This document shows, piece after piece, positions 3,843-41,801 of a DNA stretch of 64,000 nucleotides; the first letter of the stretch is position 1, and each line of letters begins with the position of its first letter. The position numbers were made by a program, and so were the translations under genes. The notes under the pieces were generated by a model. It was given only the letters and a program-made list of their open reading frames with translations. It ran no database searches and was not told the origin of the DNA. This DNA comes from a virus, in the IMG/VR virus record IMGVR_UViG_3300037587_000516, positions 1-64,000 of that record, one strand, 5' to 3'.

Positions 3843-4168
3843 CTGTAGTACTTATATAGACTCGCTAATCGCTCGGTTGTTTTAAAAGCTTAATGATTAC
3901 ACTTACTAAGCGTACATTTTACTTACTTACTTAATTTACATAATAGATAATAATTAACTTAAGAACTAAAGACCCGAATTTACTTAATAAACATATTGTT
4001 TTAAGAACATAAACAATAACTTAATAGACTATAAGACTTAAAGATGATATAATGGTTTTAGTGTCGCCTCGGCATTAGTTCAGCGACTAGTCTCGCATGC
4101 TATATAGAGTTGTTAAACGGACATGTAAACAGTGCGAATTATTTTCAAATAGTTTCAGAAAGGTTAGT
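3843..4168 (+). other. AT-rich intergenic region
   Basis: No gene is supported. The stretch 3890-4050 is extremely AT-rich with many short TTACTTAA/TTAAGAAC-type near-repeats. It ends in a sigma-70-like promoter at 4025-4053, then a GC-richer leader before the first repeat-cassette gene. An origin of replication is a possibility without direct support. Confidence 0.55.
4025..4053 (+). promoter_or_regulatory. sigma-70-like promoter
   Basis: Perfect -10 TATAAT at 4048-4053 with a 17-base spacer to a weak -35, TAGACT at 4025-4030. It reads toward the gene at 4169. Confidence 0.5.
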
Positions 4169-4432
4169 ATGCAGACATTAAAAGTAGATAACCATTGGAG
4201 CAAGCCAGGTAATTTTACAGGTAGTGTTGAACATCCTAGTGGAAATAAGCGGTGGTTTTTGAATGGTAAAAGACATAGAGTGGATGGACCTGCTGTTGAA
4301 CATGCTGGTGGATATAAGTTGTGGTATTTGAATGGTGAGAGTATGACAGAAGAAGAGCATACTAGACGTACAGCCTATCTTAGAACTACGCTAGGCAAGC
4401 TTATTTTTAACAAAAAGACTAAAGTTATCTAA
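4169..4432 (+). CDS. WYLNG/HRVDGPA repeat protein, copy 1 (87 aa)
   Basis: First of 23 paralogues in this window. Family plan: a start of either MKTIK-type or MKVFKGW-type, then NFTGIVE, one or two units of W-x-L-N-G-x-x-H-R-V-D-G-P-A-x-E, then W-x-L-N-G, and a tail EEEH-x-KRTAYLRTTLGKLIFNEHFKLE. This copy is MKTIK-type with one unit. Its tail ends KKTKVI instead of NEHFKLE because the reading frame runs into a sigma-28-like -35 box. The repeats resemble HRxDGPA repeats known from large viruses and phages and loosely MORN/YwqK repeats. Function unknown. Start chosen at the ATG with AAAGGTTAGT upstream, not at 4097. Confidence 0.8.
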   Translation: MQTLKVDNHWSKPGNFTGSVEHPSGNKRWFLNGKRHRVDGPAVEHAGGYKLWYLNGESMTEEEHTRRTAYLRTTLGKLIFNKKTKVI

Positions 4433-4467: not shown

Positions 4468-4932
4468 ATGGAAGTATTTAAAGGTTGGGCTTATACTAAG
4501 CCATATAACTTTACAGGAATTGTTGAAGAGCCAGATGGTGATAAGTCTTGGTTTTTGAATGGTGGATTACATAGAGTAGATGGGCCTGCTGTTGAATATG
4601 CTGATGGTGGTAAGACATGGTGGTTGAATGGTAGGAATGTGACAGAGGAAGCGCATACTAAAGCCTGCCTTAAGCTAGGCGAGCTAACAACTAAAGAGCC
4701 GAAAGGCGAGGGTAACACTATGAAGGTTTCTATCAAAACAATAAAGCAAAGTATATTCATCTCCGCATCTGGAGTAGAGGCAGAAATCACTCTATCATCG
4801 GTAGATAAAGTATTTGCAGACAAAGCCAGTGCTTTAATTACTAAGGTCTTAATAGATGCAGGATTGATAAGCGGCTCTTCTACCGTTAAGTCCTTTAGGG
4901 AGTTGGAAATAAAAGATAAGGGGTTAGTATGA
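4468..4932 (+). CDS. chimeric WYLNG repeat protein, copy 2 (154 aa)
   Basis: MKVFKGW-type start with one HRVDGPA unit (residues 1-66), but the conserved tail breaks off after TEEAHTKA. The frame then continues into an unrelated 70-residue segment starting at an internal Met (codon at 4720, MKVSIKTIKQSIFISASG), with its own GAGGG upstream. This looks like an in-frame fusion of a truncated cassette to a separate small gene; both a fusion product and an internally initiated protein are possible. Overlaps the next start by 4 bases. Confidence 0.7.
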   Translation: MEVFKGWAYTKPYNFTGIVEEPDGDKSWFLNGGLHRVDGPAVEYADGGKTWWLNGRNVTEEAHTKACLKLGELTTKEPKGEGNTMKVSIKTIKQSIFISASGVEAEITLSSVDKVFADKASALITKVLIDAGLISGSSTVKSFRELEIKDKGLV

Positions 4933-5132: not shown

Positions 5133-5399
5133 ATGATAGAAATATTAATAGCAGTAGTAGTGACGCTTATTATAGCGGTAGTTGTTTTGTTTAATAAAGT
5201 AAAGCAAGTTAAGGTTTGTTGTGAAAATAAGTATGTCGATTTAGCTTATATAAGGCGAGTAATTGATGGTAGTTGTAATCGTTATGCCGGGGATAGGAAC
5301 ACGGGGCTGTCTCGTAAGGTTGAACGCCTAGAAGAAGAAAACAGCAAGCTTAAGGGCGTGGTAGCAGAAGTGTGCGACTATGTATACAGAGATAAGTAG
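5133..5399 (+). CDS. membrane-anchored coiled-coil protein (88 aa)
   Basis: Residues 2-20 form one membrane span (IEILIAVVVTLIIAVVVLF). The cytoplasmic or periplasmic remainder has two Cys and a coiled coil (VERLEEENSKLKGVVAEV). A single-span spanin-like or scaffold role is conceivable, but no family was recognised. Confidence 0.55.
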   Translation: MIEILIAVVVTLIIAVVVLFNKVKQVKVCCENKYVDLAYIRRVIDGSCNRYAGDRNTGLSRKVERLEEENSKLKGVVAEVCDYVYRDK

Positions 5400-5409
5400 A
5401 GGTAGTGTT

Positions 5410-5745
5410 TTGAATTATACTAAGATAGACTATCATTGGAATATGTCGAGCGGTTTCACTGGATGCACAAAGGATTCAATGGGAATCATTGCTTACTCTG
5501 TTAAGGGCAGGTTTCACCGAGAAGGTGGACCCGCCGTGATATATCCAGATGGTATAAAGAGGTGGTACCAGCATGGCGAATTACACAGACTTGACGGACC
5601 TGCAATTGAACATGAAGGACGTGAATACCGAACCGCATACTACCTTAATGGCCAATTTGTTACGGTAGAAGAGCATACTTTAAGGACAGCCTGGACTAAA
5701 ACAACACTAGGCAAATTAATTTTAAAAAAGACTAAAGTAATTTGA
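5410..5745 (+). CDS. divergent WYLNG repeat protein, copy 3 (111 aa)
   Basis: Two HR-x-x-GPA units (RFHREGGPAVIY, ELHRLDGPAIEH) in a more diverged background (YSVKG and WYQHG replace WYLNG). The tail reads TAWTKTTLGKLIL then KKTKVI, the same truncated ending as copy 1, again running into a sigma-28-like -35 box. Start uncertain: the TTG at 5410 matches the family start and has GAGGTAGT upstream; an ATG at 5380 would overlap the previous gene by 20 bases. Confidence 0.65.
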   Translation: MNYTKIDYHWNMSSGFTGCTKDSMGIIAYSVKGRFHREGGPAVIYPDGIKRWYQHGELHRLDGPAIEHEGREYRTAYYLNGQFVTVEEHTLRTAWTKTTLGKLILKKTKVI

Positions 5746-6416: not shown

Positions 6417-6812
6417 ATGAAAACAATTAGCTTAGATTATCATTGGAATAGGCCAGATAATTTCACAGGAATAGTTGAGGACTTTGATGGGAATAAATTT
6501 TGGTTTTTGAATGGCGAAGTACATAGACTTGACGGACCTGCTATTGAGTATGCTGATGGTACTAAGTCATGGTATTTGAAGGGAGCGTGGCATAGATTAG
6601 ATGGACCTGCTAGTGAATATGCTGATGGTAGTAAGTTTTGGTTTTTGAATGGTGAGATTATGTCAGAGGAAGCGCATTTTAAAAGAACGGCGTCTTCTAA
6701 ACAAACGGACCATGTTGTGTACTATAAAGAAATGTTATGTGTATTGACAACACCAGACAATATACTAAAAATAAAAGAAAGTCCTTGCATGTTGTACTTA
6801 GGCAAGTTATAA
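6417..6812 (+). CDS. WYLNG repeat protein, copy 4, with altered tail (131 aa)
   Basis: MKTIK-type with two units (EVHRLDGPAIEY, AWHRLDGPASEY). After MSEEAHFKRTA the usual YLRTTLGKLIF is replaced by about 45 residues with no family similarity, finishing in YLGKL. This suggests an insertion or recombination within the tail. It lies just after leader element copy B. Confidence 0.75.
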   Translation: MKTISLDYHWNRPDNFTGIVEDFDGNKFWFLNGEVHRLDGPAIEYADGTKSWYLKGAWHRLDGPASEYADGSKFWFLNGEIMSEEAHFKRTASSKQTDHVVYYKEMLCVLTTPDNILKIKESPCMLYLGKL

Positions 6813-8511: not shown

Positions 8512-8702
8512 TGTATGAATTAAATGGTTTAGCTAATATAGATATGATTTTAAAGATGACCGATGATTCGGACATAAGTCCAGAACTAAAAAAGAAAATA
8601 CAAGAGCAAGTTGATTTGTCAATTATATATTTTCGGACATTACAAACAGATAGTTCTATAAAATGGCATGAAATTATTGCTAAGTCAAGGGAATCTAAGT
8701 GA
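8511..8702 (+). CDS. hypothetical protein (63 aa)
   Basis: Its ATG overlaps the previous TAA by one base. Soluble, mainly helical, charged C terminus. Function unknown. Its end overlaps the start of repeat-protein copy 5. Confidence 0.55.
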   Translation: MYELNGLANIDMILKMTDDSDISPELKKKIQEQVDLSIIYFRTLQTDSSIKWHEIIAKSRESK

Positions 8703-8968
8703 AAACAATAAAGATAAAGGACAGTGATCATATACCATATAACTTTACAGGAATTGTTGAGTTTGACGGCGGCACTGTAGTTTGGTATTTGAAGGGAGCG
8801 TGGCATAGATTAGATGGACCTGCTTTTGAATATCCTGAGGGCCGTAAGGCTTGGTATTTGAATGATGAGTATATGACAGAAGAAGAACATGCTAAAAAGA
8901 CAGCCTACCGTAGAACTACATTAGGCAAGCTTATTTTTAACAATAAATCAAATTCTATTGGGGGGTAA
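8699..8968 (+). CDS. WYLNG repeat protein, copy 5 (89 aa)
   Basis: MKTIK-type, GTG start overlapping the previous stop by 4 bases. One unit (AWHRLDGPAFEY). Tail TAYRRTTLGKLIFN then NKSNSIGG replaces EHFKLEE, but a GGGGGG run still supplies a ribosome-binding site for the next gene. Confidence 0.75.
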   Translation: MKTIKIKDSDHIPYNFTGIVEFDGGTVVWYLKGAWHRLDGPAFEYPEGRKAWYLNDEYMTEEEHAKKTAYRRTTLGKLIFNNKSNSIGG

Positions 8969-8970
8969 CT

Positions 8971-9348
8971 ATGTTTAAAATTGGCGATATTATTACAGGT
9001 AACGGTAGCAGCAGATACGCTATAACTACCGATCAAGGCACATATAGAATTATTACAGAGCCCGACATTAGTGGAAGTTGTGAAATAAAGATAGTTACTC
9101 ATATGACAGATGGGACAGACAGGGAACACTATTCTGTTAACCTTAGTCACTTTATTTTGGTTAAAACAAAGCTTTCAACACTAATTAAGCGCATTGATCT
9201 AGGCAGAAAAGCAATGAGGGATTTAATAGAACATTATAATGATGATACTATAATTAAAGAGTCCGGTAGTTCTGTGGAATATAAACCGAAAGCATTCTTT
9301 CCAGATAACATAGAGGCAGATATTGAAATCATAACGGAAGGCGAATAA
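8971..9348 (+). CDS. SH3-like protein with TLIKR domain (125 aa)
   Basis: One of three paralogues (with 9927 and 13236). An N-terminal small beta-barrel-like part starts FKIGDIITGNGSS; after residue 65 comes LSTLIKRIDLGRKAMRDLIEHY, shared with the others. Function unknown; the N terminus resembles KOW/SH3-type domains that bind RNA or protein. Confidence 0.6.
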   Translation: MFKIGDIITGNGSSRYAITTDQGTYRIITEPDISGSCEIKIVTHMTDGTDREHYSVNLSHFILVKTKLSTLIKRIDLGRKAMRDLIEHYNDDTIIKESGSSVEYKPKAFFPDNIEADIEIITEGE

Positions 9349-9802: not shown

Positions 9803-9930
9803 CAAAGAATGACTTTATATCTATTATCATAATAGGGTTTATATTTGCTTTAGTATTTAGTTCATTGCCCGATTCTAAAATCAGTTGGTTGAAACAAATT
9901 CATCCGAATTTAAAAGTGGGGGAAAAATGA
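9799..9930 (+). CDS. 43-residue membrane protein
   Basis: Overlaps the genes on both sides by 4 bases. One span (FISIIIIGFIFALVFSSL), then a short tail IHPNLKVGEK. Too short for a family call. Confidence 0.5.
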   Translation: MTKNDFISIIIIGFIFALVFSSLPDSKISWLKQIHPNLKVGEK

Positions 9931-10289
9931 CATTTAAAGTTGGAGATATTGTAGAGTGTGTTGAAAATGAAGATAGGTTTGTTCGTATAGGGGCGATTGG
10001 TAAAGTTACGTCGGTTGACTCGAGAGGAGTACACTGTCTGTGGACCAGTGGCGATTTTCTCGAAGCATCAAACAATGTGTGGCACATTGAATCGCATAGA
10101 GTCAAACTATTGGCACCAAAGCTTGAAACGTTAATTAAGCGGGCGAATATGGGCGCAAAGGCAGTAGATCAAATACTAAAATATTACCCAAATAGGGTAG
10201 AGACGTATGACGAAAGTCAGGACATGTGCCCTATTTCAATAGAATTTCAGTATTCTGAAGGCGAGGAGGTTTTTTCAATAAAAGAATAA
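9927..10289 (+). CDS. SH3-like protein with TLIKR domain (120 aa)
   Basis: ATG at 9927 chosen because GGGGGAAAA precedes it and it overlaps the previous stop as ATGA. FKVGDIVECVENED and IGAIGKVTSVD are typical turns of a small SH3/KOW barrel. Then LETLIKRANMGAKAVDQILKYYP, close to 13236 (TLIKRANLGLKAM...). It lies directly upstream of the ubiquitin-like operon, which ends with its paralogue. Confidence 0.65.
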   Translation: MTFKVGDIVECVENEDRFVRIGAIGKVTSVDSRGVHCLWTSGDFLEASNNVWHIESHRVKLLAPKLETLIKRANMGAKAVDQILKYYPNRVETYDESQDMCPISIEFQYSEGEEVFSIKE

Positions 10290-10294
10290 AAAGC

Positions 10295-10323
10295 TTGCAA
10301 TTTAAAATAAAGCATGAGATAAT
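10295..10323 (+). promoter_or_regulatory. sigma-70-like promoter of the ubiquitin-like operon
   Basis: TTGCAA at 10295-10300, a 17-base spacer, GATAAT at 10318-10323. It lies 47 bases before the Ubl start, with AAAAGGAATAAATA as ribosome-binding leader. Confidence 0.6.
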
Positions 10324-10369
10324 ATAAACTAAGTAATAACAACCAAACCAATAACAAAAGGAATAAATA

Positions 10370-10567
10370 ATGGCAAAAGTAATTGTAAAAGTACTAGGAA
10401 GCGCACCAAGAGAAATTGATGCAGATTCAGTAGGTGAGTTGAAGTCTGAGTTGGGACTTGATTCTTATTCGGCAAGTGTTAACGGAGATCCTGCCGATAG
10501 CAGCACAGAGCTATCCGAAGGTCAGTTAGTGACATTCGCGCCTAGCGTAAAAGGCGGCGCTAACTAA
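10370..10567 (+). CDS. ubiquitin-like / ThiS-MoaD-like protein (Ubl, 65 aa)
   Basis: Seen: 65 residues with strands KVIVKVLGS and EIDADSV, a helix VGELKSELGL, then SASVNGDPADSSTEL and EGQLVTFAPSVKGGAN. This order, with a hydrophilic helix after strand 2 and a G-x-x-V/L-x-F final strand, is typical of the beta-grasp fold of ThiS, MoaD and prokaryotic Ub-like proteins. Gly62-Gly63 are followed by Ala-Asn, so processing would be needed to expose a diglycine end. Known: such proteins are activated by E1 enzymes at a C-terminal Gly-Gly. Inferred: this is the modifier of the operon, with the JAB protein as the processing enzyme. Sulfur carriage is the alternative. Confidence 0.75.
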   Translation: MAKVIVKVLGSAPREIDADSVGELKSELGLDSYSASVNGDPADSSTELSEGQLVTFAPSVKGGAN

Positions 10568-10589
10568 CAGAGCCGAAATTATTTTGTGG

Positions 10590-10607
10590 GGGGATAATTC
10601 TATCCCC
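10590..10607 (+). terminator. hairpin between Ubl and E2-like genes
   Basis: Perfect 7-bp stem GGGGATA/TATCCCC with a 4-base ATTC loop, followed by TTAAATTTT. The T run is broken, so partial termination or an mRNA-stabilising hairpin is more likely than a full terminator. Either would make Ubl more abundant than the enzymes downstream. Confidence 0.55.
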
Positions 10608-10633
10608 TTAAATTTTAACATCGTGGGGATGAT

Positions 10634-11734
10634 ATGAATGAGTCAGATAATTCTGCAATCGCAGAAAATAGCGAGGTTTTCTTACCTCAGATAATCAAGA
10701 GCGGGTTTGATATGTTTAAGTCCCTTGATGCCAAAATTCGATTAGAGCAAATTAATAAAATTACATATATTGATACCATCTCTAGACAACTAGATCAAGA
10801 TGTTAGTAGTGTAAACTTATTTGAGCTATTTCCAAATAAAGATAGACTGTTTACTTGTAACGAAAGTGAAATAAACAAGATACTGGTTAACTTTACTCCA
10901 GAAACAAAAACAGTAGTGAGAGAGTTACAAAAACTATCATTAACACAAAAAGAAAATATAAAAAAGGCATCCAATTTTTGGAACAAAGACTTTAGAACAA
11001 GAACAGTTCACACAATGGACCGTTGTAATATGGACATTAGAGACCTTACTAGCAGAGTAAATGCTTTGGTAGTAGAACGAAATAAACAGCACCATATACT
11101 AGAGCAATTATCAGATAATGACGGCTCACTTCTAACTAAACAAATTGAAGAAATACTAGAGACAAAAAAATATAAGCTTGCTAGAATAGACGACAGCAAG
11201 ATAGTATTTGAACTACTAGATGACGTGATAAACACGTTTAAAAATACTCGTGCTGGGATTGATTTGCGAGTGAATCTAGGGACATTTACTATTACAGTTA
11301 AATGGGACGGTATGTATTCCGAATTGTCTGGTTTGTCCAATAATACGTGCGTCGGAAGTTTTGTCCATCCTCACTATGATAGACATCCTTGTTTGGGAAA
11401 TTTACAGGAAATTATGCAGGAGGCGCAGAAAGATAAGAACTTAGTGAAAATTATGGAAATTAATGAAACGCTATTGTTAAATTACAATGATGGGAATCCG
11501 TATAAGCCACTAGCAGCCTTCGCAGCACAAAGTAAACAGGTCCAGCCGAATGGTGAGGTTCTTAAGATTGAGGAAGCAGAGCGATGTAGTGAATATGGTC
11601 CAGGCGACTATTATAATTTCGAGTGTGGTGAATGTGGCTATGAGAATGAAATTCAATTTGACGGAGATGGCTATTACGAAGGTAGTTGTGGTGAATGTGA
11701 TGATTATTTTGATCTAGCAGCAAGTGATTTATAG
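10634..11734 (+). CDS. E2-like (UBC-fold) protein with C-terminal zinc ribbon (366 aa)
   Basis: Seen: a helical N-terminal half to about residue 200, then a strand-rich part (IDLRVNLGTFTITVKWDG) leading to HPH at 245-247 and PCLGNL with Cys253, and a helical stretch ending LLLNYNDGNPYKP. The HPx...CL order and the N-x-x-x-P after a helix match E2 enzymes, in which HPN precedes the catalytic Cys by about 8 residues; here the gap is 6 and Asn is His. The end has C-x2-C-x17-C-x2-C (Cys331, 334, 352, 355), a zinc ribbon. Known: prokaryotic E2 families lacking the HPN Asn occur beside Ubl, JAB and E1 genes. Inferred: the thioester carrier, possibly with the ribbon choosing targets. The fold call is by eye. 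Confidence 0.65.
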   Translation: MNESDNSAIAENSEVFLPQIIKSGFDMFKSLDAKIRLEQINKITYIDTISRQLDQDVSSVNLFELFPNKDRLFTCNESEINKILVNFTPETKTVVRELQKLSLTQKENIKKASNFWNKDFRTRTVHTMDRCNMDIRDLTSRVNALVVERNKQHHILEQLSDNDGSLLTKQIEEILETKKYKLARIDDSKIVFELLDDVINTFKNTRAGIDLRVNLGTFTITVKWDGMYSELSGLSNNTCVGSFVHPHYDRHPCLGNLQEIMQEAQKDKNLVKIMEINETLLLNYNDGNPYKPLAAFAAQSKQVQPNGEVLKIEEAERCSEYGPGDYYNFECGECGYENEIQFDGDGYYEGSCGECDDYFDLAASDL

Positions 11735-11745
11735 GGGGTTATGTT

Positions 11746-12564
11746 ATGGATAAAATTATATTAGGTAGAGAAGTATATGATCAAATTATGTATTACGTTA
11801 ACAAAACTAATTTTGAGATTAGTGGGCTAGGCGCTGTTGAAATTATTGATGGCTTTCCCGTTGTAACAAAGGTTTACTTATTAGATCAAGAAAATAGCGC
11901 GGCAGAAACTGAAATGGACGGCGAGGCAATTACTAAGCTAATGTATGAGCACCATATATCAGGACATCCGGGGGAATTAAAGTTCTGGTGGCACAGTCAT
12001 GTGAATATGTCAGTATTCTGGTCTACTACGGACATGACGACAATTGGTGAGCTAACAGAAAATGGCTGGTTCATTCACGGGGTATTTAATAAAGATTATG
12101 ATTACAAGTTTGCATATACTACTAATGACCCATGTCCAATTATGGTCGACGATATTGAAATGGAAATTGACGAAAATTTGGTTAACTCGTCGATACTCAG
12201 TATATTAGGGGATCTTGCTGTTGAAAATAAAAAACTAGAGGGCGAGTATGATAGTGAATTTGCGGCTAAGGTTACTATAAAAACCTATGTGCCCACCGTT
12301 ACTGACTATTCAAACTTCTACCCTAAGCATAGCGGGGCTACTACTTACACTCCAGACTGGAATAAGGAGATTTTAACATCAGGACAGGATTTGTATGATC
12401 CAGACGAGGTTAAATCAACGGGAGCATTTACGGAAGCGGGGTTTAGGGAACTGTGTGCCGCAGGGTATAGCGATGAAGAGATTCGGTTTTATAATGCGCA
12501 AGATGCATTTTGTTTGGACGAAGTTAATGAACTAGAGATGGCAAGTTGGGTGAATAATACATGA
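11746..12564 (+). CDS. JAB/JAMM-domain metallo-isopeptidase (272 aa)
   Basis: Complete JAMM signature: Glu24 in EISGLG, then His83-x-His85, seven residues, Ser93-x2-Asp96 (HSHVNMSVFWSTTD). The domain spans about residues 1-140. The rest (141-272) is an acidic extension without a recognised fold. Known: JAMM enzymes remove Ub or Ubl from targets or trim Ubl precursors. Inferred: it cleaves the Ala-Asn from the 10370 product and/or deconjugates it. GGGGG lies before the ATG. Overlaps the E1-like start by 4 bases, so the two are co-translated. Confidence 0.88.
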   Translation: MDKIILGREVYDQIMYYVNKTNFEISGLGAVEIIDGFPVVTKVYLLDQENSAAETEMDGEAITKLMYEHHISGHPGELKFWWHSHVNMSVFWSTTDMTTIGELTENGWFIHGVFNKDYDYKFAYTTNDPCPIMVDDIEMEIDENLVNSSILSILGDLAVENKKLEGEYDSEFAAKVTIKTYVPTVTDYSNFYPKHSGATTYTPDWNKEILTSGQDLYDPDEVKSTGAFTEAGFRELCAAGYSDEEIRFYNAQDAFCLDEVNELEMASWVNNT

Positions 12565-13226
12565 AAAATATATTTGGGGACCACGAGCATTTAGTGAGGC
12601 AATTAGACTTAATCCCATTGGATTGTCTAGATAAGAAGATTAACATAATTGGGGCTGGAGCAATTGGAAGTTTCACGGCGCTAAGCTTAGCCAAAATGGG
12701 GTTTAAGGATATTACAGTATTTGATGATGATACTATAGATGTTGTCAATCTTAACTGTCAATTCTTTAGGCATACTGACATTGGAAAGCCTAAAGTTGTA
12801 GCATTGCAAGAATTAATCCATGACTTTACTGGAATTACCATTGAAATAGTTAATGATAGGTGGACCGGAGCTAAGTTAAATGGCATAGTTATTGCCGCAG
12901 TAGATAGTATGGCTGTTAGAAAACAGATCTTTGAAACGCATTATAAAAACGGGTTTCAGACTGATTTAGTGATAGATCCTAGGATGGGAGCAGAAGTGGC
13001 TCTATTAGCCTCATACAAGCCTTTAAGTATAGAGGAAGGGCAAACGTATAGCAAGACTCTATATAGCGACGAGGATGCCGTACAAGAGCCCTGCACCGCC
13101 AAAAGCTCTATGTATTGCTGTCTAAGTCTATCGGGCATGGTTTGTTCAATGGTTAAGGCGTTTGTAACTGGCAATGAGTTTCCTAGGTGGAAAACCTATG
13201 ACATTGCTAAATTTGACATGGTATAG
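12561..13226 (+). CDS. E1-like ThiF/MoeB-family adenylyltransferase (221 aa)
   Basis: Rossmann ATP-binding motif GAGAIGS (31-37), acidic pair in VFDDDTID, N63, R70 and K76 in the NLNCQFFRHTDIGKPK stretch, and Asp115 after IVIAAVDS. All are expected for ThiF/MoeB/UBA adenylation. Cys178 in QEPCTAKSSMY is a candidate active-site Cys; several further Cys follow. At 221 residues it is minimal, lacking a separate Cys domain or ubiquitin-fold domain. Inferred: activates the Ubl C terminus and passes it to the E2-like protein. The same fold also serves thiamine and molybdopterin synthesis, but none of those genes is nearby. Confidence 0.85.
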   Translation: MKNIFGDHEHLVRQLDLIPLDCLDKKINIIGAGAIGSFTALSLAKMGFKDITVFDDDTIDVVNLNCQFFRHTDIGKPKVVALQELIHDFTGITIEIVNDRWTGAKLNGIVIAAVDSMAVRKQIFETHYKNGFQTDLVIDPRMGAEVALLASYKPLSIEEGQTYSKTLYSDEDAVQEPCTAKSSMYCCLSLSGMVCSMVKAFVTGNEFPRWKTYDIAKFDMV

Positions 13227-13235
13227 GGGGTTAGT

Positions 13236-13808
13236 ATGTCTAGAGAAATTAGAGAGGGCGATAGGGTTAGGTTTACTGGCACAGCGTCTCATGAGGATAT
13301 AGCGAACGGTGGTATTTATACTGTCCAAAGCATTATTAACTCGGGAGGGCATGATTACGTATGTTATATGCAAGATAATAGCTATAACGAACGCTTATCA
13401 GATTTTGAGCTAGTAGAAGATAGACCAACCAGAGCATTTAGAGTTGGTGATAGGATAAAATGCGCTAGTGTTGCTCCAAATTATGGTAGTGATCCGGTTA
13501 TTGGTCAAGTATATGAAGTGTGTGGTATTGAGTTGGCGTTTGATTGGGTTAGGGTTATCTACGGGGAAAGGACTATGCGGTTTTTGTCTCGCGATTTTGA
13601 ACTAGTAGAGCGCGAATACTCAATAGAAACGCTTATAAAAAGAGCCAATTTAGGATTAAAGGCCATGCATGAGCTACAATCTAAATATCCTAGTGAGGCC
13701 GGTATTACATTTGAATCTGGTAAGGTCTCTTTTTCTAATGGAATTGCTTTTTGTTATGACGACAGTGACGCAGAAAACCCGCCGACGATAGTAAAATTAC
13801 TGTTTTAA
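13236..13808 (+). CDS. double SH3-like protein with TLIKRANLG domain (190 aa)
   Basis: Two barrel-like repeats (REGDRVRFTG... to residue 62, and RVGDRIKCAS... to about 127), each ending in DFELVE, followed by SIETLIKRANLGLKAMHELQSKYP. The latter is shared with 8971 and 9927. It begins 9 bases after the E1-like gene and is the last gene before the terminator, so it is part of the conjugation operon. A recruiting or substrate role is a guess from position only. Confidence 0.6.
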   Translation: MSREIREGDRVRFTGTASHEDIANGGIYTVQSIINSGGHDYVCYMQDNSYNERLSDFELVEDRPTRAFRVGDRIKCASVAPNYGSDPVIGQVYEVCGIELAFDWVRVIYGERTMRFLSRDFELVEREYSIETLIKRANLGLKAMHELQSKYPSEAGITFESGKVSFSNGIAFCYDDSDAENPPTIVKLLF

Positions 13809-13818
13809 TATAATCGTA

Positions 13819-13862
13819 GCATGGTGGGGTAACCTCCCCACAATAACCCCGCCATGCGTTTT
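13819..13862 (+). terminator. intrinsic terminator of the ubiquitin-like operon
   Basis: A 12-bp stem, GCATGGTGGGGT at 13819-13830 pairing with ACCCCGCCATGC at 13846-13857 with one G-T wobble, 15-base loop, then GTTTTCT. A smaller hairpin (GTGGGG/CCCCAC) can form inside it. It closes the transcription unit that starts at 10295. Confidence 0.75.
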
Positions 13863-15124: not shown

Positions 15125-15351
15125 GTGATAAATTAATACTAGACCCGCAGTTAATTATGAACGACCTACTAAGAGATAACGAGCGATTAATTATTGAAAA
15201 TAATGCTTTACAAGGTAGTATTAGTAGGTTAGAATTATTATTAGATAGAGTTAGGGAAATTGGAAGCGATGCCATAACAGGCCGCGAAGAATTTAGACTG
15301 GAAAATGAGAAGTTAAAAGCTGAATTAATGGGAGTTAATACTAAGCAATGA
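15121..15351 (+). CDS. coiled-coil protein (76 aa)
   Basis: Heptads from about residue 17 to the end (DNERLIIENNALQGSISRLE). Overlaps the previous gene and repeat-protein copy 6 by 4 bases each. Unknown function. Confidence 0.55.
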   Translation: MSDKLILDPQLIMNDLLRDNERLIIENNALQGSISRLELLLDRVREIGSDAITGREEFRLENEKLKAELMGVNTKQ

Positions 15352-15623
15352 GAGTGTTTAAAGGAGGTTTTGGTAATATACCAAATAAATTCACAGGAAT
15401 TGTCGAATCGCAAGGTGGGAATAAGTATTGGTTTTTGAAGGGTAAACACCATAGAGTAGGTGGGCCTGCTGTTGAGTGGTGGGACGGCACTTCGTCCTGG
15501 GGGTTGAATGGTGAATGGATAACAGAAGAAGAGCATTCTAGAAGAACTGCATGGACTAAAACAACACTGGGCAGATTGATATTAAAAGAGGATTATTTTA
15601 AACTAACGGGAGAGATTAAATGA
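15348..15623 (+). CDS. WYLNG repeat protein, copy 6 (91 aa)
   Basis: MKVFKGW-type but with FKGGFGN. One unit (KHHRVGGPAVEW, Gly for Asp). Tail TAWTKTTLGRLILKEDYFKL then TGEIK. Its last codons contain GGGAGAG, used by the MoxR gene that overlaps it by 4 bases. Confidence 0.75.
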   Translation: MRVFKGGFGNIPNKFTGIVESQGGNKYWFLKGKHHRVGGPAVEWWDGTSSWGLNGEWITEEEHSRRTAWTKTTLGRLILKEDYFKLTGEIK

Positions 15624-16669
15624 ATGTAGAAGAGATGAAAAAAGTCATGCCACTATTAATGAAGTCCAACATCGTTCCATTCATTTGGGGTAGATCCGGT
15701 GTTGGGAAAACAGAAGTAATTAGGCAAATAGCCAAATCGCTTGATATGGAGCTAATATACTTAACATTTGCCGCTGTAGAGGATGTTGGGGATATTATCG
15801 GATTGCCGTATGAGAAAATGGTCAACGGTGAAATGACCACTGGACACATGCCTCCGGATTGGTTTCCAACCGAAGGCAATAAGTTGATCTTTATTGATGA
15901 ATTTAACCGGGCTAAGCCACAGATACTTCAAGCCATGTTTCCATTTGTATTAGAGGGCAGACTTCATACTCACAAATTGCCTGAGAATTGCCATATTGTA
16001 GTTGCAGGTAATCCCCCAACAGAAGATTACGACGTAACTAGTATGGAGGACAATGCGCTGTTTTCTAGATTCTGCCATATGAACTTTACTCCTAGCGTTG
16101 AAGAGTGGGTTGTGTATATGAAGGAGCAAAATAGAAACCATGATGTTATCACATTCTTTAATACTAATCAGGACTTAATTTCCTCAGTAGCAAAGGACTT
16201 TGATATTAGAACGGTTTGTAAAAATGATCGGCGTAACGCTGAAATGCTGGCCAAATTTATTGATGATAATGACCCACATGATTCAGTAACTCAGTTAGTT
16301 GCATCCGGGTTGCTAGGTCCAGAGCTAGGCGTTAAATTCATGGCGCATGTGAAAAGTAATAGCGAGCGGATTAGCTCAGAAGAAATACTGAATAATTATA
16401 GTATTAGGACCAGAGATAAAGTCCGCAGAAACTTTACTAGAGTTGACATTTTAAACAAGGGTATTGAGGATGCGCTAACCACAATCAAGGCTTGTAAAGA
16501 GATACAGGAAAGTCAAGCAAGGAACATGGCAGCGTTTCTAACAGAACTGCCGAATGACCTAGCCTGGAAGGGAATTAAAGCATTCCTAGAGTTGGGCCAT
16601 GATAATTGTTTGAAGTTCATTGGTGAAAATGAGGACTTAGTTAAGAAATTTAAAGATAGAACAGCATGA
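15620..16669 (+). CDS. MoxR-family AAA+ ATPase (349 aa)
   Basis: Walker A GRSGVGKT (24-31), the MoxR-like segment DVGDIIGLP, Walker B LIFIDEFNRA (89-98), sensor Asn in VAGNPPT (129-135) and an arginine in FSRF (about 150). Known: MoxR ATPases work with von Willebrand A proteins as chaperones or complex-assembly machines. The partner is probably the metallopeptidase/VWA protein at 17449, separated here by a repeat cassette and an HNH gene, both plausibly later insertions. Target unknown. Confidence 0.85.
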   Translation: MNVEEMKKVMPLLMKSNIVPFIWGRSGVGKTEVIRQIAKSLDMELIYLTFAAVEDVGDIIGLPYEKMVNGEMTTGHMPPDWFPTEGNKLIFIDEFNRAKPQILQAMFPFVLEGRLHTHKLPENCHIVVAGNPPTEDYDVTSMEDNALFSRFCHMNFTPSVEEWVVYMKEQNRNHDVITFFNTNQDLISSVAKDFDIRTVCKNDRRNAEMLAKFIDDNDPHDSVTQLVASGLLGPELGVKFMAHVKSNSERISSEEILNNYSIRTRDKVRRNFTRVDILNKGIEDALTTIKACKEIQESQARNMAAFLTELPNDLAWKGIKAFLELGHDNCLKFIGENEDLVKKFKDRTA

Positions 16670-16929
16670 AGGTGTTTAAAGGGTGGTTTGGTGATAGACC
16701 GGATAATTTTACAGGGATTGTTGAAAATCCGGATGGTGCTAAGCGTTGGTGCTTGAATGGTGAATGGCATAGAGTTGATGGACCTGCTGTTGAACATGCT
16801 GATGGTGATAAGTATTGGTATTTGAATGGTGAGTTTTTGACAGAAATAGAGCACACTAAAAGAACTGCTTATTTAAGAACTACCTTGGGCAAGATTATTT
16901 TTAATGAGCATTTTAAATTGGAGGGGTAA
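16666..16929 (+). CDS. WYLNG repeat protein, copy 7 (87 aa)
   Basis: MKVFKGW-type, one unit (EWHRVDGPAVEH), full tail TAYLRTTLGKIIFNEHFKLEG. Starts in the stop of the MoxR gene. The GGAGGGGTA at its end is the ribosome-binding site of the HNH gene. Confidence 0.8.
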   Translation: MKVFKGWFGDRPDNFTGIVENPDGAKRWCLNGEWHRVDGPAVEHADGDKYWYLNGEFLTEIEHTKRTAYLRTTLGKIIFNEHFKLEG

Positions 16930-17448: not shown

Positions 17449-18540
17449 TTGATTGAGAATCATGAGTATTATGCGAACTTGTTATATCAAGCTAGGATTG
17501 AATATTCAAGTAGCATCGACAAAGCCGGGATTTGTTTTAAGAACAACCAAATTTACATGATCATTAATCCTGAGTTTTGGAAAAGTATTAGTATAAAGCA
17601 CAAAGTTGGCGTTCTAATGCATGAGTTGGATCATATTATAATGGGACACCTTCTTCGTGGACATGATATGGACATAGCTCATAAGCATATGAATATTGCG
17701 GCAGATTTGGCAATTAACCAACACAATAGGTATCTTCAAGATATGGCTAACATTTTGATACTTGACAAATTTAATGAGAAGTATAAGGTTGATATGGAGC
17801 CCAACAGAGAAATGGAGTATTACGCTAGAAAGTTGTTAGATGATGATGTAGTTAAGTATGTTTCATCTGAGGAACTAGCTGATATGATGTCTGGTGACCA
17901 CAGTATGTGGAATGACTCTGACATAGACGAAGATACTAAAAAGCAGATAATGGTAAACGCCTTAGAGGAGGCCGCAAATTCAACCCAGTCCGGAAATATT
18001 CCCGGCGAGGCATTGACCACCATTAATAAGCACAAAAAGCCATACTATAACTGGAAAAGAGTGTTGGCAAAGTTTATCGCTAGAACGCAGAACAATACTA
18101 CTAAAGTAACTCGGAATAGAAGAAACCGCAGATTTGCATTGACCCAGCCGGGTAAAAGACAGGAAGTTAAGATGCATATAGTATGTTGCATTGATACCAG
18201 TGGCTCAGTATCAGATGATATGCTAGGTAGAATTGGCACAGAGCTATGTGGTATGGTTGATAAAAGAATTCGGGTTACTATTATAGAGGCAGACCACGAT
18301 ATACAAAGAGTGTATGAGATGGATAGGAAGGGCATACAGAGCTTTAAAGGTAGAGGCGGGACCGCATATACCCCAGCCATTAAAAAGGCTGAGGAGCTAA
18401 AGCCAGACGCTATTTTGTACTTCACAGATGGCGACAGGGCAGATGTGCCAGATAAAGTTGGCGTTCCTTTTTTATGGGTGTTGACTACGGAGCAAGACAA
18501 GCCGGGTAATTTTGGTAAAGTATTACGGATTCCGGCGTGA
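17449..18540 (+). CDS. metallopeptidase-like / VWA-domain protein, MoxR partner (363 aa)
   Basis: N-terminal domain with zinc motif HELDH (58-62), followed by MNIAADLAINQHN, as in DUF2201-type putative metallopeptidases. C-terminal VWA-like domain with the MIDAS motif DTSGSVS (249-255), then FTDGDRAD. Known: this two-domain architecture is paired with MoxR ATPases. The start is unclear: TTG at 17449 has AGAGG 4 bases upstream, while the better AAGGAG is 7 bases before an ATC at 17428 in the same frame. Overlaps copy 8. Confidence 0.8.
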   Translation: MIENHEYYANLLYQARIEYSSSIDKAGICFKNNQIYMIINPEFWKSISIKHKVGVLMHELDHIIMGHLLRGHDMDIAHKHMNIAADLAINQHNRYLQDMANILILDKFNEKYKVDMEPNREMEYYARKLLDDDVVKYVSSEELADMMSGDHSMWNDSDIDEDTKKQIMVNALEEAANSTQSGNIPGEALTTINKHKKPYYNWKRVLAKFIARTQNNTTKVTRNRRNRRFALTQPGKRQEVKMHIVCCIDTSGSVSDDMLGRIGTELCGMVDKRIRVTIIEADHDIQRVYEMDRKGIQSFKGRGGTAYTPAIKKAEELKPDAILYFTDGDRADVPDKVGVPFLWVLTTEQDKPGNFGKVLRIPA

Positions 18541-18872
18541 AGGTGTTTAAAGGGTGGTTTCATGATAGACCAGATAATTTTACGGGGATTGTCGAGTCTG
18601 AGAATGGTGATAAGGCTTGGTATTTGAATGGCAAAAGGCATAGAGTGGACGGACCTGCTGAGGAATGGTCAGATGGTACTAAGTTTTGGTTTTTGGATGG
18701 TGAGAGCCATAGAGTTGACGGACCTGCTGTTGAATTTGCTAGTGGTAATAAGCATTGGTGTTTGAATGGTGTGCGTATGTTAGAGGAAGAGCACACTAAA
18801 AAGACAGCCTACCTTAGAACTACATTAGGTAAACTAATATTTAGTGAGCATTTTAAATTGGATGAGTCATGA
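18537..18872 (+). CDS. WYLNG repeat protein, copy 8 (111 aa)
   Basis: MKVFKGW-type with GTG start in the previous stop. Two units (KRHRVDGPAEEW, ESHRVDGPAVEF). Tail ends FSEHFKLDES. First of three head-to-tail copies overlapping by 4 bases. Confidence 0.8.
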   Translation: MKVFKGWFHDRPDNFTGIVESENGDKAWYLNGKRHRVDGPAEEWSDGTKFWFLDGESHRVDGPAVEFASGNKHWCLNGVRMLEEEHTKKTAYLRTTLGKLIFSEHFKLDES

Positions 18873-19135
18873 AAGTATTTAAAGGGTGGTCTTATGGAAG
18901 GCCAAGTAATTTCACAGGAATTGTTGAAAATAATAATGGAGACAAGTATTGGTATTTGAAGGGCATGTTACATAGAGTTGACGGACCTGCTGAGGAATGG
19001 GCTGGTGGTAGTAAGCAGTGGTGGTTGAATGGTGAGTATATGACAGAAGAAAAGCACACTAAAAGAACTGCTTATTTAAGGACTACGCTAGGCAAACTAA
19101 TATTTAACGAGCATTTTAAATTGGAGGAAGTGTGA
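18869..19135 (+). CDS. WYLNG repeat protein, copy 9 (88 aa)
   Basis: MKVFKGW-type, one unit (MLHRVDGPAEEW), full tail FNEHFKLEEV. Middle of the triplet; overlaps its neighbours by 4 bases on each side. Confidence 0.8.
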   Translation: MKVFKGWSYGRPSNFTGIVENNNGDKYWYLKGMLHRVDGPAEEWAGGSKQWWLNGEYMTEEKHTKRTAYLRTTLGKLIFNEHFKLEEV

Positions 19136-19404
19136 CTATATTTAAAGGGTGGTTTGGTAGTCAACCATATAACTTTACGGGAATTGTAGAAGCCCCACGT
19201 GGTGATAAGTTTTGGCTTTTGAATGGCGAATCTCATAGAGTTGATGGACCTTCTAGTGAGTGGGCTGATGGTCATAAGACTTGGTATTTGAATGGTGAAT
19301 ATATGTCAGAAGAAGAGCATTATAAAAAGACAGCTTACCTTAGGACTACTTTGGGCAAACTAATATTTAATGAGCATTTTAAATTGGAGAGAGACAGTGG
19401 CTAA
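19132..19404 (+). CDS. WYLNG repeat protein, copy 10 (90 aa)
   Basis: Starts GTG-ACT-ATA (MTIFKGW). One unit (ESHRVDGPSSEW, Ser for Ala). Tail FNEHFKLERDSG. Its end overlaps the phosphoesterase start by 8 bases and supplies that gene's GGAGAG. Confidence 0.8.
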   Translation: MTIFKGWFGSQPYNFTGIVEAPRGDKFWLLNGESHRVDGPSSEWADGHKTWYLNGEYMSEEEHYKKTAYLRTTLGKLIFNEHFKLERDSG

Positions 19405-21621: not shown

Positions 21622-22417
21622 ATTTATACTAATTTCGGACTCGCATTACGGGTTAGATGGCAAGACCCATGCCAAGCATTTGAAGTTCTGGAAGCGGGTA
21701 GAAAAAGCTATTAAGGACGAGAATGTTCAAGCGCTGCTTTGGGCTGGAGACATAGCGTCTTTTAGGCAGAGACACTTTTATAAGAGCTTGGAAATGGCTA
21801 GGCAGTATGTTAGTGTCCCAATTTTATTGGTAAAGGGAAATCATGATTTTTACTGTGGCAAAGACCCAAAAGATCGCGGGGTTGAGTTTTCTTCTCTAGA
21901 AGAAGTAAACGATAGGCATAAGAAATGGATGACTAAGTTTGACATTCATCATTTAGAAGATGCTCCTTATATAGTGGATGATGTGATAGTGTGCGGCTTT
22001 GACGGCTGGTATGCGGTTCCAAATCCGGGCACCAACTGTAAGTATTGGATTCCCAAAAACGTCCAAGGGCAGCCGTTTGTGAGCCAGTATCTGGTAACAA
22101 AAGCATGGAGAGACCTCCAGAATTGCCTAGACGTTGATACTGGTTCATTTAGAAAGTCAGTGTTAGTTACGCACCACAATCCTTATGGCTTTAGTCAGCT
22201 GGGCAAAGTTAAAACGGTTGACGAATTAATGGAGGAAGGTGTTGAATATACTGGGCATGGGGCTAATATAAAGTTCTTGCCGGAGATTAGAGAGAAGTTT
22301 GATGTGATGTGCTGCGGGCATACTCATGGGTATAAGAATGATTGTGATGAAGGCATTCAGATTTATAACTGCGGGTCTGATTACAATAAACCTAAGTTTT
22401 TAGTATTTGAGGTGTGA
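21614..22417 (+). CDS. calcineurin-like metallophosphoesterase (267 aa)
   Basis: ISDSHYGLDG, WAGDIASF, VKGNHDFYCG, VTHHNPYG and CGHTHGYKND appear in order, a complete set of metal ligands. Second phosphoesterase of the region and clearly different from that at 19397. Substrate unknown. Confidence 0.85.
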   Translation: MVKFILISDSHYGLDGKTHAKHLKFWKRVEKAIKDENVQALLWAGDIASFRQRHFYKSLEMARQYVSVPILLVKGNHDFYCGKDPKDRGVEFSSLEEVNDRHKKWMTKFDIHHLEDAPYIVDDVIVCGFDGWYAVPNPGTNCKYWIPKNVQGQPFVSQYLVTKAWRDLQNCLDVDTGSFRKSVLVTHHNPYGFSQLGKVKTVDELMEEGVEYTGHGANIKFLPEIREKFDVMCCGHTHGYKNDCDEGIQIYNCGSDYNKPKFLVFEV

Positions 22418-22418
22418 T

Positions 22419-22685
22419 GTGAAAGTGTTTAAAGGGTGGTTTGGTGACGAACCAGATAATTTCACAGGAATTGTTGAAAATCCAAATGGACATAAGTATT
22501 GGTTTTTGAATGGTAAAAGGCATAGAGTTGATGGACCTGCTATTGAGTGGTCAGATGGTAGAAGTTGGTCGTGGTGGTTGAATGGTGAGTATATGACAGA
22601 AGAAAAGCACACTAAAAGAACAGCGTGGTGTAGAACTACATTAGGTAAGTTGATATTGAATGAGCATTTTAAATTGGAAGATTAA
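22419..22685 (+). CDS. WYLNG repeat protein, copy 11 (88 aa)
   Basis: MKVFKGW-type; GTG at 22419 fits the family start. One unit (KRHRVDGPAIEW) followed by a variant SDGRSWSWWLNG also seen in copy 18. Tail FNEHFKLED-like (LNEHFKLED). It ends an operon; a sigma-70-like promoter follows. Confidence 0.8.
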   Translation: MKVFKGWFGDEPDNFTGIVENPNGHKYWFLNGKRHRVDGPAIEWSDGRSWSWWLNGEYMTEEKHTKRTAWCRTTLGKLILNEHFKLED

Positions 22686-27410: not shown

Positions 27411-27700
27411 GTTCATTAATGGCCGGAACACTTATGATAGCATTTGGCATAGTAATTATAGCCGCCGTTATAATACTGGATATAACAGGAAAGATAAATA
27501 TAGGACCAAAATTAGCAGCGATTCCTCCGGAAGAAGTTCCGGAATGTTGGAGAGTTAAGAAGGTTGAGCATGTGTTTTATACTGACGACACAAATGAAAT
27601 TTACATAATGGACGGAAGTTGGAGAGCAACTCAGCATTCGAGGTTAATTAGTGGCGAAGTTGAACAAATCGAAGGCTTAATATTTTTGGGCGAGCTGTGA
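27407..27700 (+). CDS. membrane-anchored protein (97 aa)
   Basis: N-terminal span (LMIAFGIVIIAAVIILDI), then a soluble strand-rich domain. Coupled to the membrane peptide before it and repeat-protein copy 12 after it. Unknown. Confidence 0.6.
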   Translation: MSSLMAGTLMIAFGIVIIAAVIILDITGKINIGPKLAAIPPEEVPECWRVKKVEHVFYTDDTNEIYIMDGSWRATQHSRLISGEVEQIEGLIFLGEL

Positions 27701-27966
27701 AAACAATAATAAGAGATAATGTTTGGACCAGACCAACTAAATTCACCGGAATAGTTGAATCTAAGAATGGAGATAAGGCTTGGTATTTGAATGGAGAATA
27801 CCATAGAGTTGACGGACCTGCTCTTGAATGTGCTAATGGCACTGGGTATTGGTGGCTAAATGGCTCACATATATTAGAAACAGAGCATTCTAAAAGAACA
27901 GCTTATTTAAGAACTACTTTGGGTAAGTTGATATTTAATGAGCATTTTAAGTTGGAAGAGTCATGA
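27697..27966 (+). CDS. WYLNG repeat protein, copy 12 (89 aa)
   Basis: MKTIK-type (MKTIIRDNVW), GTG start in the previous stop. One unit (EYHRVDGPALEC), full tail FNEHFKLEES. Tail DNA GTTGGAAGAGTC carries the ribosome-binding site of the next gene. Confidence 0.8.
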   Translation: MKTIIRDNVWTRPTKFTGIVESKNGDKAWYLNGEYHRVDGPALECANGTGYWWLNGSHILETEHSKRTAYLRTTLGKLIFNEHFKLEES

Positions 27967-28106
27967 AAAAGTTAGTATTTGTATTCTTTGATAATTATAT
28001 CGGCGACTTTGTTGAAATGACCCCAACAGAGAAGAACTTGCATCAATTGTTTAGCACTAGAAACTCTAGTTTTTATTCGCATTTAACTTATTTGGGAGAG
28101 CTATGA
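27963..28106 (+). CDS. 47-residue hypothetical protein
   Basis: Sits between two repeat cassettes with 4-base overlaps on both sides. Aromatic, soluble (KLVFVFFDNYIGDFVEMT). It resembles a small standalone gene flanked by two cassettes. Unknown. Confidence 0.5.
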   Translation: MKKLVFVFFDNYIGDFVEMTPTEKNLHQLFSTRNSSFYSHLTYLGEL

Positions 28107-28372
28107 AAGTGTTTAAAGGGTGGTTTGGTGAAAAACCAGATAATTTCACAGGAATTGTCGAAGAGCCAGATGGAAGTAAGCGTTGGTGTTTAAATGGCCT
28201 ACTTCATAAGGTTGACGGACATGCTGTTGAGTGGTACAACGGAAATAAGTTTTGGTGTTTGAATGGTAATTATATGACAGAAATAGAACACACTAAAAGA
28301 ACAGCGTGGATAAAAACTACTTTGGGCAAATTGATATTTAATGAGCATTTTAAATTGGAGGACAAATGTTAG
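28103..28372 (+). CDS. WYLNG repeat protein, copy 13 (89 aa)
   Basis: MKVFKGW-type. Its single unit is degenerate (LLHKVDGHAVEW: Lys for Arg, His for Pro). Full tail FNEHFKLEDKC. GGAGG near the end precedes the next ATG. Confidence 0.8.
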   Translation: MKVFKGWFGEKPDNFTGIVEEPDGSKRWCLNGLLHKVDGHAVEWYNGNKFWCLNGNYMTEIEHTKRTAWIKTTLGKLIFNEHFKLEDKC

Positions 28373-29309: not shown

Positions 29310-29645
29310 ATGAAGATATTTAAAGGGTGGTTTCGTGAAAGACCAAAAAACTTCACAGGAATAGTCGAAGATACAGGCGGCGATAAGTATTGGTATTTGA
29401 ATGGTAAGTGGCATAGAGTTGACGGACCTGCTTTTGAGTGTAAAGACGGCAGTAAGGTGTGGTATTTGAATGGGGAAAGGCATAGAGTTGACGGACCTGC
29501 TATTGAGTGGTCTGGTGGTGGTAAGTATTGGTGTTTGAATGGTGAATATATGTCAGAAGAAGAGCATTATAAAAAGACAGCTTACCTTAGGACTACTTTG
29601 GGTAAGCTAATATTTAATGAGCATTTTAAATTGGAGGAAGGGTGA
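29310..29645 (+). CDS. WYLNG repeat protein, copy 14 (111 aa)
   Basis: MKIFKGW start, two units (KWHRVDGPAFEC, ERHRVDGPAIEW), full tail FNEHFKLEEG. GGAGGAAGG at the end overlaps the GTG of the next gene. Confidence 0.8.
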   Translation: MKIFKGWFRERPKNFTGIVEDTGGDKYWYLNGKWHRVDGPAFECKDGSKVWYLNGERHRVDGPAIEWSGGGKYWCLNGEYMSEEEHYKKTAYLRTTLGKLIFNEHFKLEEG

Positions 29646-32140: not shown

Positions 32141-32481
32141 AGGTGTTTAAAGGGTGGTGTAAGGATAGACCACATAAATTCACGGGAATTGTTGAAACTC
32201 CAGGTGGCACTAAGTATTGGTATTTGAATGGTGAATTTCATAGAGTTGACGGACCTGCTATTGAATATTCTAAGGGTGGTAAGTCTTGGTATTTGAATGG
32301 AGAAAGACATAGAGTTGACGGGCCTGCTATTGATTGGACAGATGGAAGTAAGTCTTGGTTTTTGAATGGTGAGTATATGACAGAGGAAGAGCATGCTAAA
32401 AGAACAGCTTATCTTAGGACTACTCTTGGTAAGTTGATATTTAATGAGCATTTTAAACTGGAGGAAAACAGTGTCAACTAA
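32137..32481 (+). CDS. WYLNG repeat protein, copy 15 (114 aa)
   Basis: MKVFKGW-type, two units (EFHRVDGPAIEY, ERHRVDGPAIDW), full tail FNEHFKLEENSVN. It is inserted between nuclease and recombination genes. GGAGG in its tail precedes the GTG of the next gene, which overlaps it by 11 bases. Confidence 0.8.
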   Translation: MKVFKGWCKDRPHKFTGIVETPGGTKYWYLNGEFHRVDGPAIEYSKGGKSWYLNGERHRVDGPAIDWTDGSKSWFLNGEYMTEEEHAKRTAYLRTTLGKLIFNEHFKLEENSVN

Positions 32482-38870: not shown

Positions 38871-38954
38871 ATGAACACTGTATTGCCAGATAGTGCATGT
38901 TTGGGTGAGCATTGGGCAGAGTATATGGCGGACTTGATAAAAAGGTGTGAATAA
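38871..38954 (+). CDS. 27-residue peptide
   Basis: ATG two bases after the GACTAGTATT junction, with a poor ribosome-binding site. Its stop overlaps the start of copy 16 by one base. Acidic (CLGEHWAEYMADLIKRCE). Weakly supported. Confidence 0.35.
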   Translation: MNTVLPDSACLGEHWAEYMADLIKRCE

Positions 38955-41783: not shown

Positions 41784-41801
41784 AGTATATGGGAGTTGGA
41801 T

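Follow-up and report, generated by a model that had tools for sequence, protein, structure and literature searches.

Does a tailed phage carry its own apparatus for attaching a ubiquitin-like protein (Ubl) to other proteins and for removing it again? This question is raised by four consecutive genes in the virus record IMGVR_UViG_3300037587_000516, of which bases 1-64000 out of 87,126 were analysed, a stretch referred to here as the window. The genes span window positions 10370-13226 on the + strand and encode a Ubl, an E2-like protein, a JAB/JAMM metallopeptidase and an E1/ThiF-type adenylating enzyme, each found at the position that an initial annotation had assigned to it (Table 1). The record is taken to come from a tailed phage because it contains terminase, portal and major head genes. 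These are located on the - strand on the far side of the record, and the + strand side, to which the cassette belongs, carries ribonucleotide reductase, primase-helicase, DNA polymerase, Erf and nuclease genes. Profiles, folds and catalytic residues lend good support to the idea of a phage-encoded operon for Ubl conjugation that includes E1, E2 and JAB, and we consider it quite likely, judging from these sequence features, that the four genes form a conjugation and deconjugation cascade in which the JAB protein recycles the tag.

Table 1. Features of the cassette and of its surroundings in the window (coordinates of the last three copies refer to the record).
Feature	Position	Strand	Properties or evidence
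Ubl, 65 aa	10370..10567	+	Single beta-grasp domain; profile, AF2 model, Foldseek
RNA hairpin in the 66-nt Ubl-E2 gap	10587..10610	+	Followed by AAATTTTA; -16.9 kcal/mol, z -2.0
E2-like protein, 366 aa	10634..11734	+	
E2 N-terminal helical/coiled-coil region			Helix 89-159
E2 UBC core	11117..11539	+	Residues about 162-302, 141 residues
E2 C-terminal zinc-ribbon-like CxxC...CxxC			Residues 331-355
JAB/JAMM metallopeptidase, 272 aa	11746..12564	+	Rpn11/JAMM1 profile matches
E1/ThiF-type adenylating enzyme, 221 aa	12561..13226	+	One adenylation domain; Pfam ThiF 1.8e-20
Fifth gene, before the terminator	13236..13808	+	Outside the conserved module
Intrinsic-terminator-like hairpin	13819..13857	+	12-bp stem, then GUUUUCU; -23 kcal/mol, z -3.8, 0/200 shuffles
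WYLNGEWHRVDGPAVE-family copies, first half	4097-4432, 4468-4932, 5380-5745, 6417-6812, 8699-8968, 15348-15623, 16666-16929, 18537-19404 (three), 22407-22685, 27697-27966, 28103-28372		
WYLNGEWHRVDGPAVE-family copies, rest	29310-29645, 32137-32481, 38954-39220, 41796-42756 (three), 46186-46470, 46873-47142, 47591-47857, 49546-49806; record 79704-81997 (three)		

Catalytic residues, profiles and folds of the four proteins

In a single-sequence Pfam scan of the window cassette only the E1 was recognised (ThiF, 1.8e-20), together with a sub-threshold ThiS match for the Ubl (0.0044), so that the E2 and JAB proteins had to be identified from family evidence. For this purpose, IMG/VR was searched with the JAB sequence, which gave 31 relatives, and with a JAB profile, which gave 107, of which 80 were kept. 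That the E2 and JAB of the window have no acceptable Pfam match on their own would suit the view that unrelated accessory genes merely lie side by side and that the E2 and Ubl are recognised by a coincidence of motifs. We regard this view as hardly credible, as the families co-occur in 78-97 of 98 loci despite rearrangement, their family profiles find the expected relatives, and the catalytic residues are invariant.

The ThiF/E1 domain proposed in the initial annotation is confirmed by the Pfam match, and the family profile of the E1 retrieves UBA5 (4.9e-17) as well as UBA6 and ThiF from the PDB. The protein contains R13, the GxGxxG motif at residues 31-36, D55, N63, Q67, K78, D115, R120 and a predicted active Cys178 (codon 13092-13094). 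G31, G33, D55, N63, Q67, K78, D115, R120 and C178 are conserved in 96-98 of 99 loci (K78 in 98, D115 in 97, C178 in 96). Cys178 is situated where single-domain E1s hold their active cysteine, and its catalytic role is predicted from this position. The JAB protein likewise contains the full JAMM motif that had been claimed for it, with E24, H83-S84-H85, S93 and D96 (HSH...D codons 11992-12033). E24, H83, H85, S93 and D96 are invariant among the JAB relatives, and the HxH...SxxD pattern is present in all 101 of 101 loci. Its family profile matches Rpn11 (2.4e-8) and archaeal JAMM1 (3e-7) in the PDB, and the Pfam family Prok-JAB is matched by 22 of 26 relatives at E<=1, the best value being 1.8e-7. 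One archaeal structure, JAMM1-SAMP2 (5lda, chains A and B), is recognised by the JAB profile as well as by the Ubl profile.

The window Ubl ends in K61-G62-G63 followed by a two-residue tail, A-N (VKGG-AN; GG codons 10553-10558), as had been noted before. As a hallmark of the family, however, the Gly-Gly pair holds in part: the K-G is constant, with K61 and G62 kept in at least 90% of the relatives, but the next residue is G, A or N. Most relatives carry 0-3 residues after K-G-[G/A/N] and some carry 12 or more, such as the Ubls of three loci (L002, L010, L020) with tails of 12-37 residues; in another locus (L017) the Ubl is a tandem of two Ubls. These tails imply trimming by a protease, for which the JAB protein would be the obvious enzyme. 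The Ubl family profile matches SAMP2 in the PDB (3.6e-5), and the AlphaFold (AF2) model, with a pLDDT of 89 and the strand and helix order E-E-H-E-E-E, is a beta-grasp. Its top Foldseek matches are MoaD, ubiquitin and NEDD8 with a probability of 1.00 and E-values of 1e-3 to 8e-3, no match in this search having an E-value below 1e-3.

The E2-like protein, by eye the weakest of the four assignments, consists of a helical N-terminal region, a UBC core and a zinc-ribbon-like C-terminus, and the core alone was used for the profile search because the coiled coil swamped the search with the full-length profile. Ubiquitin-conjugating enzymes or their variants made up 60 of the 60 PDB matches listed (best E=4.1e-4), headed by E2-21.5 kDa, E2 1 and UBE2A (Rad6-type), which align over HP[NH]...G..C and the following helix. 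In the window protein this motif is H245-P246-H247...C253 (HPH codons 11366-11374, Cys codon 11390-11392). C253 is invariant across 25 E2 relatives, and His-[P/T/S]-x followed by Cys-x-Gly, mostly as HPH, is seen in 80 of 92 E2s, which bears out the earlier assignment as an E2-like protein with HPH...Cys. AlphaFold confidence is above 90 over about residues 171-300. When the whole-chain model was compared with the PDB by Foldseek, RWD, UEV and bacterial E2 folds turned up at E > 0.03, and against a viral structure library three phage proteins matched below 1e-3. The N-termini of the E2s are highly variable, up to an E2 with pentapeptide repeats (5.7e-31; locus L014), as expected if the N-terminus is a targeting region. 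Several loci contain two or three E2-like genes per E1/JAB (L111 661-6897, L043 2937-5906, L051 and L061), which suggests several target-selecting E2s.

The cassette thus combines what a conjugation cascade calls for: a beta-grasp Ubl with a C-terminal Gly, an E1 with adenylation residues and a putative catalytic Cys, and an E2 whose UBC fold and catalytic Cys are indicated by the profile match and C253. The lack of a UBC or beta-grasp fold, which by the initial annotation would have refuted its reading, was not observed, the E2 core profile pointing to UBC enzymes and the Ubl model being a beta-grasp. Alternatively, the E1 could make a Ubl thiocarboxylate in the manner of ThiF-ThiS or MoeB-MoaD, for a phage cofactor or for tRNA thiolation, with the E2-like protein as a structural partner. 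The weak ThiS match of the Ubl, its similarity to MoaD folds and the ThiF match of the E1 would agree with such a sulfur carrier. Yet a UBC-type protein with a near-invariant Cys and a JAB protein co-occur throughout, the E1 showed no rhodanese domain in the Pfam scan, genes for a cysteine desulfurase, tRNA thiolation or a cofactor were not recognised among the recurrent neighbours, and in the tree discussed below the E1s stand apart from the MoeB-like and generic ThiF sequences that were sampled. We therefore regard sulfur transfer as improbable.

A co-inherited module in phages and some cellular genomes

All open reading frames were clustered across 98 non-duplicate loci with JAB or E1 as bait. 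JAB was present in 97 loci, E1 in 95, E2 in 85 and Ubl in 78, and the next non-antisense family in 16; the counts of JAB and E1 are inflated by their use as bait, those of E2 and Ubl are not. The module thus recurs in roughly a hundred further loci of viruses or mobile elements, and in most loci the four families adjoin one another. The gene order was found to be Ubl-E2-JAB-E1, Ubl-E1-JAB-E2, E2-JAB-E1-Ubl or E1-Ubl-E2-JAB, and the four genes are thus co-inherited as a module despite their shuffled order. Genes that recur near the module are those for DNA polymerase I (16 loci), DnaB helicase (12), D5-like primase (9) and SNF2 helicase (9), and no structural gene was recognised as a recurrent neighbour in the 98 loci. 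A role in degradation was considered and rejected, since no protease partner was recognised among these neighbours.

Besides metagenomic phages, relatives of the E1 are carried by cultured or named ones; they occur in the Flavobacterium FpV4 group, in Bacteroides crAss-like phages (Kehishuvirus and others), in Xanthomonas PhiXhv and in Erwinia Ep032, with primase, uracil-DNA glycosylase, ligase or topoisomerase genes near the cassette relatives. In the FpV4 and crAss-like phages, a JAB gene (HSHNxMxxFFSGTD) precedes the E1. Two proteins are encoded upstream of it, one with MHSH[VL]...C.G and one that is beta-grasp-like and has KSG[AG] internally. Position and motif suggest that these are the E2 and the Ubl, but the FpV4 candidates were not matched by the models of the two families. 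PhiXhv-12 has a protein with ASGG at its end, then an HPH...CLG E2 and then the E1. In public annotations of the crAss-like phages (L142, L143 and L145), FpV4 (L033) and PhiXhv-12 (L144), the E1 is in several cases labelled “thiamine biosynthesis protein”, and the JAB, E2-like and Ubl-like neighbours are labelled metalloprotease or hypothetical; the identification of the E1 corrects the former label.

No match was found when 85,000 genomes were scanned for a strict JAB pattern, but the description of the module as virus-only had to be dropped when an E1 scan found matches in Myxococcales metagenome-assembled genomes (MAGs), with several copies each, in a few Deltaproteobacteria and on single archaeal or candidate phyla radiation MAG contigs. 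In aquatic Myxococcales MAGs (genomes G002-G005; loci L093, L097, L104, L108 and others), near-identical Ubl-E2-JAB-E1 copies are located on separate contigs, and many of the Myxococcales copies share neighbours that we read as being of replication or recombination type. The E1 nearest to that of the window (61%) comes from a contig of 8 kb in a Lokiarchaeota bin; the contig may well be phage DNA placed in the wrong bin.

Comparison with PRTRC, Bil, CBASS and SAMP systems

In a quick E1 tree without bootstrap, from which Bil was left out, the phage-system E1s fall together on their side of a branch (85). Plasmid PRTRC is their sister group (95 jointly); they are not nested in it, and they lie apart from the MoeB-like and generic ThiF sequences in the sample. 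A wider set of phage E1s is separated from generic ThiF with a support of 100. PRTRC is operon type 6d of Iyer, Burroughs and Aravind 2006, a Ubl/E2/JAB/E1 neighbourhood (PMC1779556), and resembles the phage cassette in having separate genes for Ubl, E2-like protein, JAB and single-domain E1, in a similar order and on mobile elements. However, PRTRC includes an extra alpha-helical gene and a JAB N-terminal domain (PMC1779556), and the His of its E2 lies downstream of the Cys (PMC1779556; sequence of locus L150), whereas HPx precedes the Cys here. Against eight PRTRC loci the best E-values of the phage models were 0.06 for E2, 0.88 for Ubl and 0.05 for JAB, as opposed to 2e-21 for E1. With the NCBIfam PRTRC models (TIGR03736, TIGR03737 and companions), no match was obtained for the window E2, JAB or Ubl at E<=1, and the E1 scored 37.8 bits with TIGR03736 compared to a cut-off of 144.75. 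Membership of PRTRC was therefore rejected, the E2, JAB and Ubl not being recognised as homologues of the PRTRC proteins.

The initial annotation had linked the cassette to the bacterial anti-phage Bil system, which modifies phage tail proteins and so protects bacteria. The two share Ubl, E2, JAB and E1 activities in a four-gene operon, and the order in the window, Ubl-E2-JAB-E1, does equal BilA-D. But this order also fits PRTRC, apart from one extra gene, varies among the phage relatives and is joined to an E1 that is closest to PRTRC, in a tree without a verified Bil sequence. According to the published description (PMC11354881), by which Bil is set apart here, BilA has two Ubl domains, BilD has an inactive and an active adenylation domain plus a Cys domain, and BilB carries CEHH, with the His after the Cys. 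In contrast, the window Ubl has one domain in 65 aa, the E1 one ThiF domain in 221 aa, and the E2 has HPH at 245-247 before C253 and no CEHH. With these three features absent, membership of Bil was rejected, and the link is only an analogy. A search for Bil loci via Prok-JAB matches gave PRTRC and sulfur-metabolism clusters, such as L165. The phage cassette is a system that would work like Bil and PRTRC, yet belongs to neither.

The shared activities and order could also mean that the cassette is a Bil-like weapon, which puts the Ubl on the structural proteins of competing phages in superinfection exclusion, or which imitates or counters a host Bil system. Phages often carry anti-phage genes. 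Since the tested Bil features are lacking, and the relatives in named phages lie among replication genes, in surroundings not recognisable as a defence or moron locus, we consider this unlikely.

A ThiF domain (PADLOC E1-E2 1.6e-12; Cap2 7.2e-11) and a JAB protein are shared with Cap2/Cap3 of type II CBASS, but the phage module has no E1-E2 fusion, has its own Ubl gene and has no recognised CD-NTase beside it. Among solved structures, the nearest that the Ubl and JAB profiles find are SAMP2-JAMM1 and Rpn11/ubiquitin; archaeal SAMP conjugation, however, proceeds without an E2 (PMC11354881), which the phage module possesses.

Hairpin gap, possible targets and genome surroundings

The Ubl and E2 genes are separated by a median gap of 74 nt (44 loci), as opposed to 2 nt for E2-JAB and -1 nt for JAB-E1. 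When the gap was compared with dinucleotide shuffles in 35 loci, the hairpins reached a median z of -3.8, with 74% at p of about 0.05 or less, whereas the control, the 90 nt upstream of the Ubl, reached -1.8 and 50%. The hairpin sequences vary between loci, and the number of independent hairpins is smaller than 35 because about ten are from near-identical Myxococcales copies. The gap hairpin suggests a predicted attenuator or partial terminator that would let the tag outnumber the enzymes.

From these features the following mechanism can be proposed. The JAB protein would trim the two-residue tail of the Ubl and expose the Gly, which the small E1 would adenylate with ATP before forming a thioester on Cys178. 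The Ubl, probably in excess due to the attenuator hairpin between its gene and those of the enzymes, would be handed to Cys253 of the E2 and linked to lysines of target proteins picked by the helical and zinc-ribbon extensions of the E2 itself, and the same JAB would take it off again. With regard to the role, we tentatively suggest, with more doubt than confidence, a transient tagging of phage or host proteins of DNA replication, repair or takeover early in infection; we lean towards such targets because the recurrent neighbours are replication genes. The phage's own virion proteins could instead be tagged during assembly and trimmed later by JAB, and TAPI/TAPK of phage tail assembly do pair a Ubl with a JAB (PMC1779556). 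However, the cassette is on the + strand together with genes of early or replication type, opposite to terminase, portal and major head, and the recurrent context is DNA replication and repair with no structural neighbour recognised, which makes virion tagging distinctly unlikely. Virion tagging and phage competition share the conjugation chemistry and differ in the target alone, and our guess ranks early replication or takeover targets above both.

Several observations weigh against a conjugation cascade with these targets. The E2 profile match is modest (4e-4), the HP motif is absent from some E2 relatives, and whole-chain Foldseek of the E2 model against the PDB gave no match below 1e-3. 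Neither an E3 nor a degradation partner was found, and in the PhiXhv group a JAB is missing next to the other genes. The hairpin signal is in part a general one, because the 90 nt upstream of the Ubl also fold beyond shuffles, and the replication-gene neighbours, counted without a background rate, may merely mirror where phages place accessory genes. Searching the open-licence literature, we found no paper on a phage-encoded Ubl/E2/JAB/E1 cascade, an absence that is weak evidence.

More broadly, we hold it evenly balanced whether tailed phages of many unrelated kinds, among them the crAss-like phages of the human gut, run reversible protein tagging during infection, with a dedicated tag and an attenuator-set ratio of tag to enzymes, regulating phage replication or host takeover, in a viral branch of prokaryotic ubiquitin-like signalling distinct from Bil, CBASS and PRTRC. 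Bacterial Ubl conjugation is now discussed chiefly as host defence, and a cascade spread among phages suggests that viruses may tag proteins themselves. The minimal four-gene set of E1, E2, Ubl and JAB also offers a way to study how ubiquitin signalling arose, and the question of targets can be approached now in those cultured phages in which relatives of the E1 and JAB lie next to candidate genes for Ubl and E2.

The cassette had further been described as bracketed by its own promoter and terminator. The promoter proposed at 10295 could not be upheld, since sites that match 9/12, as it does, number 30 in this region versus 25.3 expected, and a shared AAAGCTTG-type promoter pattern was rejected with 45 matches versus 46 expected. 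The terminator-like hairpin is credible, but it follows the fifth gene, so that the cassette is not bracketed alone. This gene has no Pfam or NCBIfam match at E<=1, a weak PHROG match only, and is not among the neighbour families shared with related loci; its C-terminal motif [ES]TLIKR[AI][ND][ML]G.KA also occurs in the genes at 8971-9348 and 9885-10289.

Elsewhere, about 26 paralogues of one small protein family (about 85-150 aa, roughly 36-77% identical, with a W/G-rich “WYLNGEWHRVDGPAVE” pattern) are scattered through the 87-kb genome. A MoxR-like AAA ATPase (15620-16669; phrog_1297, 2.5e-56) is separated by two small inserted genes from a phrog_1314 protein with a HELDH metallopeptidase-like motif (17449-18540), and the two resemble a MoxR/VWA-metallopeptidase pair.

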